Source: Metarhizium brunneum (Eukaryota; Ascomycota; Sordariomycetes; Hypocreales; Clavicipitaceae). Taken from it: a DNA stretch of 64,000 nt. Below the pieces are notes generated by a model. It saw only the letters and a list, made by a program, of their open reading frames with translations. It was not told the origin of the DNA and ran no database searches. Below, piece after piece: positions 60,886 through 62,714 of this stretch; within the stretch, counting starts at the first letter, position 1; each line of letters opens with the position of its first letter. The stretch covers positions 3,100,001-3,164,000 of the forward strand of contig NC_089426.1 of assembly GCF_013426205.1 (NCBI RefSeq). The letters are read 5' to 3'. Position numbers and translations under genes: made by a program.

Positions 60886-62714
<1,829 letters not shown>

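Follow-up and report, generated by a model that had tools for sequence, protein, structure and literature searches.

The TEF1 (eEF1A) gene of Metarhizium brunneum very probably has a constitutive internal exon of only two nucleotides, GG, which lies between two ordinary short U2-type introns, here called A and B. The gene is found on the minus strand at the end of the window, by which we mean the whole stretch of 64 kb that was analysed. The P-loop, which binds GTP, has its first glycine at residue 15, and the two bases would be positions 1 and 2 of that codon. It is also likely, though less firmly so, that at least two families of the Hypocreales have retained a constitutive exon of 2 nt in an eEF1A gene that is essential, very highly expressed and the only one of its kind; Metarhizium is taken here to belong to the Clavicipitaceae and Trichoderma to the Hypocreaceae. 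If the first of these readings is right, a 2-base exon is faithfully spliced in a gene that is among the cell's busiest, and the case shows the reach of intron definition where there is hardly any exon to define. If the second is right as well, every TEF1 mRNA of these fungi would undergo ordered two-step splicing, at a site that leaves no room for both introns to be recognised simultaneously. Since fungal barcoding uses TEF1 as a standard, existing sequences allow the origin and the stability of the exon to be studied, and with an exon kept across families, tef1 barcodes that reach the start of the gene would record its evolution.

The gene model is given in Table 1. The joined frame encodes 460 residues followed by a stop codon, and the product aligns over its full length with the solved eEF1A structure 1f60, which we take to be the yeast protein. 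A protein search with eEF1A that covered the source genome (37,771,916 bases on 7 contigs) returned nine matches. Three of these are exons of TEF1 itself, and the other six, at 26–40% identity, are presumably eRF3-, Hbs1- and EF-Tu-like relatives; no second eEF1A gene was found by this search of the 7 contigs. As the only such gene to turn up, TEF1 must be spliced and expressed correctly. Hardly any weight can be given to the idea that the locus is a decayed copy with a working eEF1A gene elsewhere: the search found no further copy, the reading frame is full-length at 460 aa with its remaining exons intact, and the P-loop is preserved.

Table 1. Features of the TEF1 gene, with positions in the window
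Feature	Position	Strand	Basis
Candidate intron in the 5' UTR, beginning with the donor GTAAGT (62855); acceptor uncertain, either 62767 or 62752	62752-62855	-	by eye
Coding exon 1 (ATG ... GTT ATC), 42 nt	62714-62673	-	sequence and joined frame
Intron A, 62 nt, GTAAGT...CTGAC...GTCGTAG; A of the branch-site match 15 nt from the 3' end	62672-62611	-	
Predicted exon GG, 2 nt; bases 1-2 of the Gly15 codon (GGC) in the P-loop GHVDSGKS	62610-62609	-	model enumeration
Intron B, 63 nt, GTATGT...CTGAC...CACAG; A of the branch-site match 14 nt from the 3' end	62608-62546	-	
Coding exon 3 (C CAC GTC GAC ... GAG AAG)	62545-62455	-	model enumeration and joined frame
Large intron, 253 nt, GTAAGC...TAG	62454-62202	-	joined frame
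Coding exon 4	62201-62063	-	joined frame
Short intron, 68 nt, GTATGT...CAG	62062-61995	-	joined frame
Coding exon 5 up to the TAA stop	61994-60886	-	joined frame

The reason for proposing so small an exon is the reading frame. When one GT-AG intron is drawn from the ATC that ends exon 1 to the C CAC junction of exon 3, the frame is 2 bases short. An earlier note on this DNA had proposed the GG exon, and the letters and coordinates that it gave (ATC followed by GTAAGT, the acceptor GTCGTAG, the GG, the donor GTATGT, and C CAC GTC GAC) are all correct. It had also held that only the inclusion of GG restores Gly-His-Val-Asp-Ser-Gly-Lys-Ser and a protein of 460 residues. All GT-AG models with one or two introns of at least 35 nt were enumerated over the stretch that opens with the ATG and closes with exon 3. 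None of the 29 open one-intron models contains GHVDSGKS, while four of the 374 open two-intron models do, all four by way of the GG at 62610-62609, and only one of the four, with its first intron starting at 62672, keeps VVVI intact. Admitting GC donors raises the number of two-intron models with GHVDSGKS to five, and GC plus AT donors to eight; every one again relies on this GG, and in the extra models VVVIG never survives without residues being lost or gained. The claim thus holds among the enumerated one- and two-intron GT-AG models, and the GG-exon model is preferred because it is the sole one of these to give an intact eEF1A N-terminus. There are five GG dinucleotides in the 127-nt region between exons 1 and 3, and one of the five (TAG-GG-GTATGT) has AG before it and GT after it. 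The same note's statement that the frame is broken without GG, and that reading on from the first acceptor meets stops, was borne out too: a stop is reached at codon 40 when GG is skipped, at codon 25 when intron A is retained and at codon 29 when intron B is retained. Transcripts of these kinds would be discarded, probably by nonsense-mediated decay.

GG has an intact acceptor and an intact donor of its own directly adjoining it (TAG GG GTATGT), it is required both for the reading frame and for a conserved P-loop residue, and the flanking introns of 62 and 63 nt each have, as the earlier note had said, a CTGAC branch site by sequence match; its A lies 15 nt from the 3' end in intron A and 14 nt in intron B. 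To estimate how often such an arrangement arises by chance, the 127 nt were put through 20,000 dinucleotide shuffles in which the donor of A and the final CAG were held fixed. A usable AG-GG-GT appeared in 0.275% of them. When the inner AG also had to be preceded by a pyrimidine and, further upstream, by a branch-site match, and the donor had to fit GTRWGT, the count fell to 1 in 20,000; this criterion makes no demand on the branch site of intron B. The strict tandem-intron pattern, with any two bases allowed between the introns, occurs once over the two strands of the window taken together, at GG; it is worth noting that this count and the shuffle test were both devised after the site was known.

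One alternative has the same product as the GG-exon model. When any boundaries are allowed within the stretch that opens with the ATG and closes with exon 3, just one single deletion gives the right peptide, namely a non-canonical intron of 125 nt, TA...CA at 62671-62547; here the G of the first donor stays with exon 1, and that of the last acceptor with exon 3. Both models give an identical mRNA, and cDNA alone cannot separate them. To our knowledge, TA-CA is not a recognised class of spliceosomal intron. Such an intron would also leave unexplained the inner TAG-GG-GTATGT with its well placed CTGAC (the combination seen in 1 of 20,000 shuffles), as well as the AG-GG-GTGC layout that fits a broken protein model in Trichoderma parareesei (see below), and it is very unlikely.

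If the GG-exon model is right, introns A and B would each be recognised by intron definition through their own branch sites. Given the extent of U1 pairing at a donor, U1 bound to the donor of B would cover bases of the acceptor of A. With the acceptor of A and the donor region of B overlapping in this way, the two introns would not be engaged simultaneously and would have to be removed successively; stepwise splicing of A and B is a sound inference from the layout. The likely order would be A first and then B, since A is transcribed first and its removal slightly betters the donor context of B. Compared with the donor consensus, CAGGTAAGT, the donor of B agrees at 6 of 9 positions while A is still in place and at 7 of 9 once A is gone, a gain of one position that argues weakly for this order. 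In potato invertase the second intron is removed first, as cited in PMC4674806. Guo and Liu (PMC4674806) made a similar argument for an Arabidopsis exon of 1 nt, for which they proposed intron definition and recursive splicing.

Stwintrons of fungi (PMC5639578) are a known arrangement of two introns at one site, and as far as the available text describes them, they consist, as A and B would, of short adjacent introns that need consecutive removal. A nesting of this kind, with A as the internal intron that interrupts the donor region of B as the external one, has almost no likelihood for TEF1. In a stwintron the internal intron splits a splice element, and no exonic bases lie between the introns, whereas the GTATGT of B is contiguous and the two bases GG stay in the predicted mRNA. 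The same source reports an exon of 3 nt in lipS of Dactylellina (PMC5639578). Regarding the two introns of TEF1 themselves (62546-62672, minus strand), their lengths of 62 and 63 nt are nearly equal and they show a modest mutual alignment, the score of which was equalled in 2 of 1000 dinucleotide shuffles. This may be a weak hint of a common origin, which is not claimed here because 119 of 5000 shuffles equal the score once donor, branch site and acceptor are held fixed.

The predicted GG exon joins a known but very rare class, that of ultra-short exons. The earlier note had regarded two nucleotides as close to the physical limit of an exon, and this does not stand, as exons of 1 nt have been published for APC11 of Arabidopsis (PMC4674806) and CYP621A of Fusarium (PMC12940212). 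The latter is a close parallel. According to the text available to us, the Fusarium exon is also made of G, also lies in the glycine codon of a conserved motif in an AG-G-GT setting, and was also found through the misfit of the phases of neighbouring exons. The differences are that it is 1 nt long, belongs to a P450 of unknown function and is supported by RNA reads (PMC12940212), whereas the exon in TEF1 has 2 nt, belongs to an essential gene and is predicted from sequence. For the origin of their exon, Nelson and Syed suggest that a junction inside a conserved motif lost a base and that a cryptic intronic G exon came to the rescue (PMC12940212). By analogy, and in the form in which this scenario is accessible, it would fit the GG exon of TEF1. 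The 1-nt exons of plant APC11 and VPS55 (PMC4674806, PMC8831610) resemble GG, in the parts of these papers that were available, in that the reading frame depends on them and annotations had missed them; unlike GG, they are 1 nt long, come from plants and from other genes, and were shown by minigene or RT-PCR (PMC4674806, PMC8831610). In Trichoderma virens, which like M. brunneum is a member of the Hypocreales, the Xlr2 gene has a microexon of 20 nt, which is ten times longer than GG and is described in the accessible text as glucose-regulated (PMC11121469).

The eEF1A proteins of relatives may carry traces of the same structure. Two protein searches were made, the second with the one-intron variant as query and meant to draw out similarly mis-modelled proteins, and the best 120 of 7,998 and the best 120 of 7,957 matches together comprise 209 distinct eEF1A proteins. 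Among these listed proteins, 204 of 209 have Gly before HVD[SA]GKS, one lacks the region, and four are without the P-loop Gly: Metarhizium rileyi, T. virens (two entries) and T. parareesei. All four have V right after VVVI, which is what a GTN donor after ATC gives when translated. The two T. virens entries read VVVI-VRIIPPLSGA-HVDSGKS. The T. parareesei entry reads VVVI-VCTFRSIIGIIRQPDPKNHCANHLPSRGA-HVDSGKS, with an insert of 29 codons that ends in PSRGA. Of this insert, 26 codons plus AG correspond to an 80-nt intron A retained whole, and the bases after it (GG, then GTGC, then the opening C of exon 3) make up the codons AGG for R, GGT for G and GCC for A, with the phase matching exactly; the AG-GG-GTGC is here a back-translation from the protein, not DNA. 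The ending S-G-A in T. virens can be read in the same way, though less firmly, as an acceptor with GGGTGC and then C after it. The M. rileyi entry signals the donor of A, not GG. Two differently broken models point to AG-GG-GTGC in Trichoderma, and the GG exon is probably shared more widely than M. brunneum. If this is right, it explains the annotation error in the broken Trichoderma and Metarhizium entries.

These entries bear on a further alternative, namely that an error of sequencing or assembly has cost exon 1 its last two G, or exon 3 its first two, and that the true gene has one intron. A loss of 2 bases at the junction would indeed produce the same appearance. Public models of three other species fail at the same place, however, and an error would not generate an acceptor, a donor and a branch site that fit one another midway between the two exons, so that this explanation is extremely unlikely. 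Other annotations seem to have fared better than the broken ones. T. citrinoviride (P0140) has a normal eEF1A N-terminus, as do the entries from Beauveria and Fusarium (the latter, we assume, of the same order as M. brunneum), and such normal N-termini are uninformative on the introns of these species; some annotations, that of T. citrinoviride among them, place the exon or avoid the problem. Among the Trichoderma and Metarhizium eEF1A entries named in the listed matches, the P-loop Gly is missing in 4 of 5, a figure that is not a rate, since the second search was built to find such entries.

Some other features of the listed proteins deserve mention. M. rileyi and Diaporthe eres are each 95% identical to the TEF1 product among the matches listed, and eEF1A is thus too strongly conserved for placing a species. 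Three Trichoderma eEF1A entries (P0123, P0124, P0127) show further damage downstream, with stretches altered or missing, and eEF1A looks to be mis-modelled at more than one place in those annotations. One fungal-type eEF1A (P0054), 90% identical, is labelled Acinetobacter baumannii, and this label is most likely due to contamination.

DNA collections were searched as well. A pattern made of exon 1 plus the donor had no matches in IMG/VR, and its three matches in bacterial and archaeal genomes were not eEF1A-like when translated. Searching IMG/VR with the eEF1A protein gave two loci, one (L010) covering residues 271-460 and another (L011) covering the start of the gene. The latter is intronless with a differing N-terminus (MGKEKSH), and was discarded as evidence on the introns of TEF1. 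The contig in question (L011:2917-3252, IMGVR_UViG_3300030818_000095) is filed as viral and ends in the start of a fungal-type eEF1A, with 95% identity in the best segment; it is probably transcript-derived or chimeric.

The introns of tef1 are numbered in barcoding work. The large intron is called the 4th in Trichoderma (PMC3824238), and the "fourth and fifth introns" of tef1 are named in PMC9953464. In M. brunneum the large intron ranks 4th when the candidate 5'-UTR intron placed by eye is counted together with A and B. We infer that the 253-nt intron at 62202-62454 corresponds to the 4th, large intron of the Trichoderma papers, and the 68-nt intron at 61995-62062 would be the 5th by the same numbering. 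As far as the accessible text of these papers goes, this suggests that the structure flanking GG had been counted before in Trichoderma without comment; in that text the 2-nt exon is nowhere mentioned (PMC3824238, PMC9953464). Nor was a mention of a 2-nt exon in tef1 found in the titles, abstract openings and passages covered by searches of the open full-text literature. Microexon and elongation-factor wording is absent from PMC12403724. The GG exon may already stand unremarked in database annotations.

Next to TEF1, the window has two adjacent frames on the plus strand at 57477-60286, the second of which belongs to the PF20778 family by its relatives. The two may be one split gene, presumably an SLS1-like mitochondrial gene. 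By its proteins the window would be hypocrealean, and probably from the Clavicipitaceae. The neighbouring protein at 58904 has a relative that is 95% identical, and the best named one, from Claviceps africana (Clavicipitaceae), reaches 54%.
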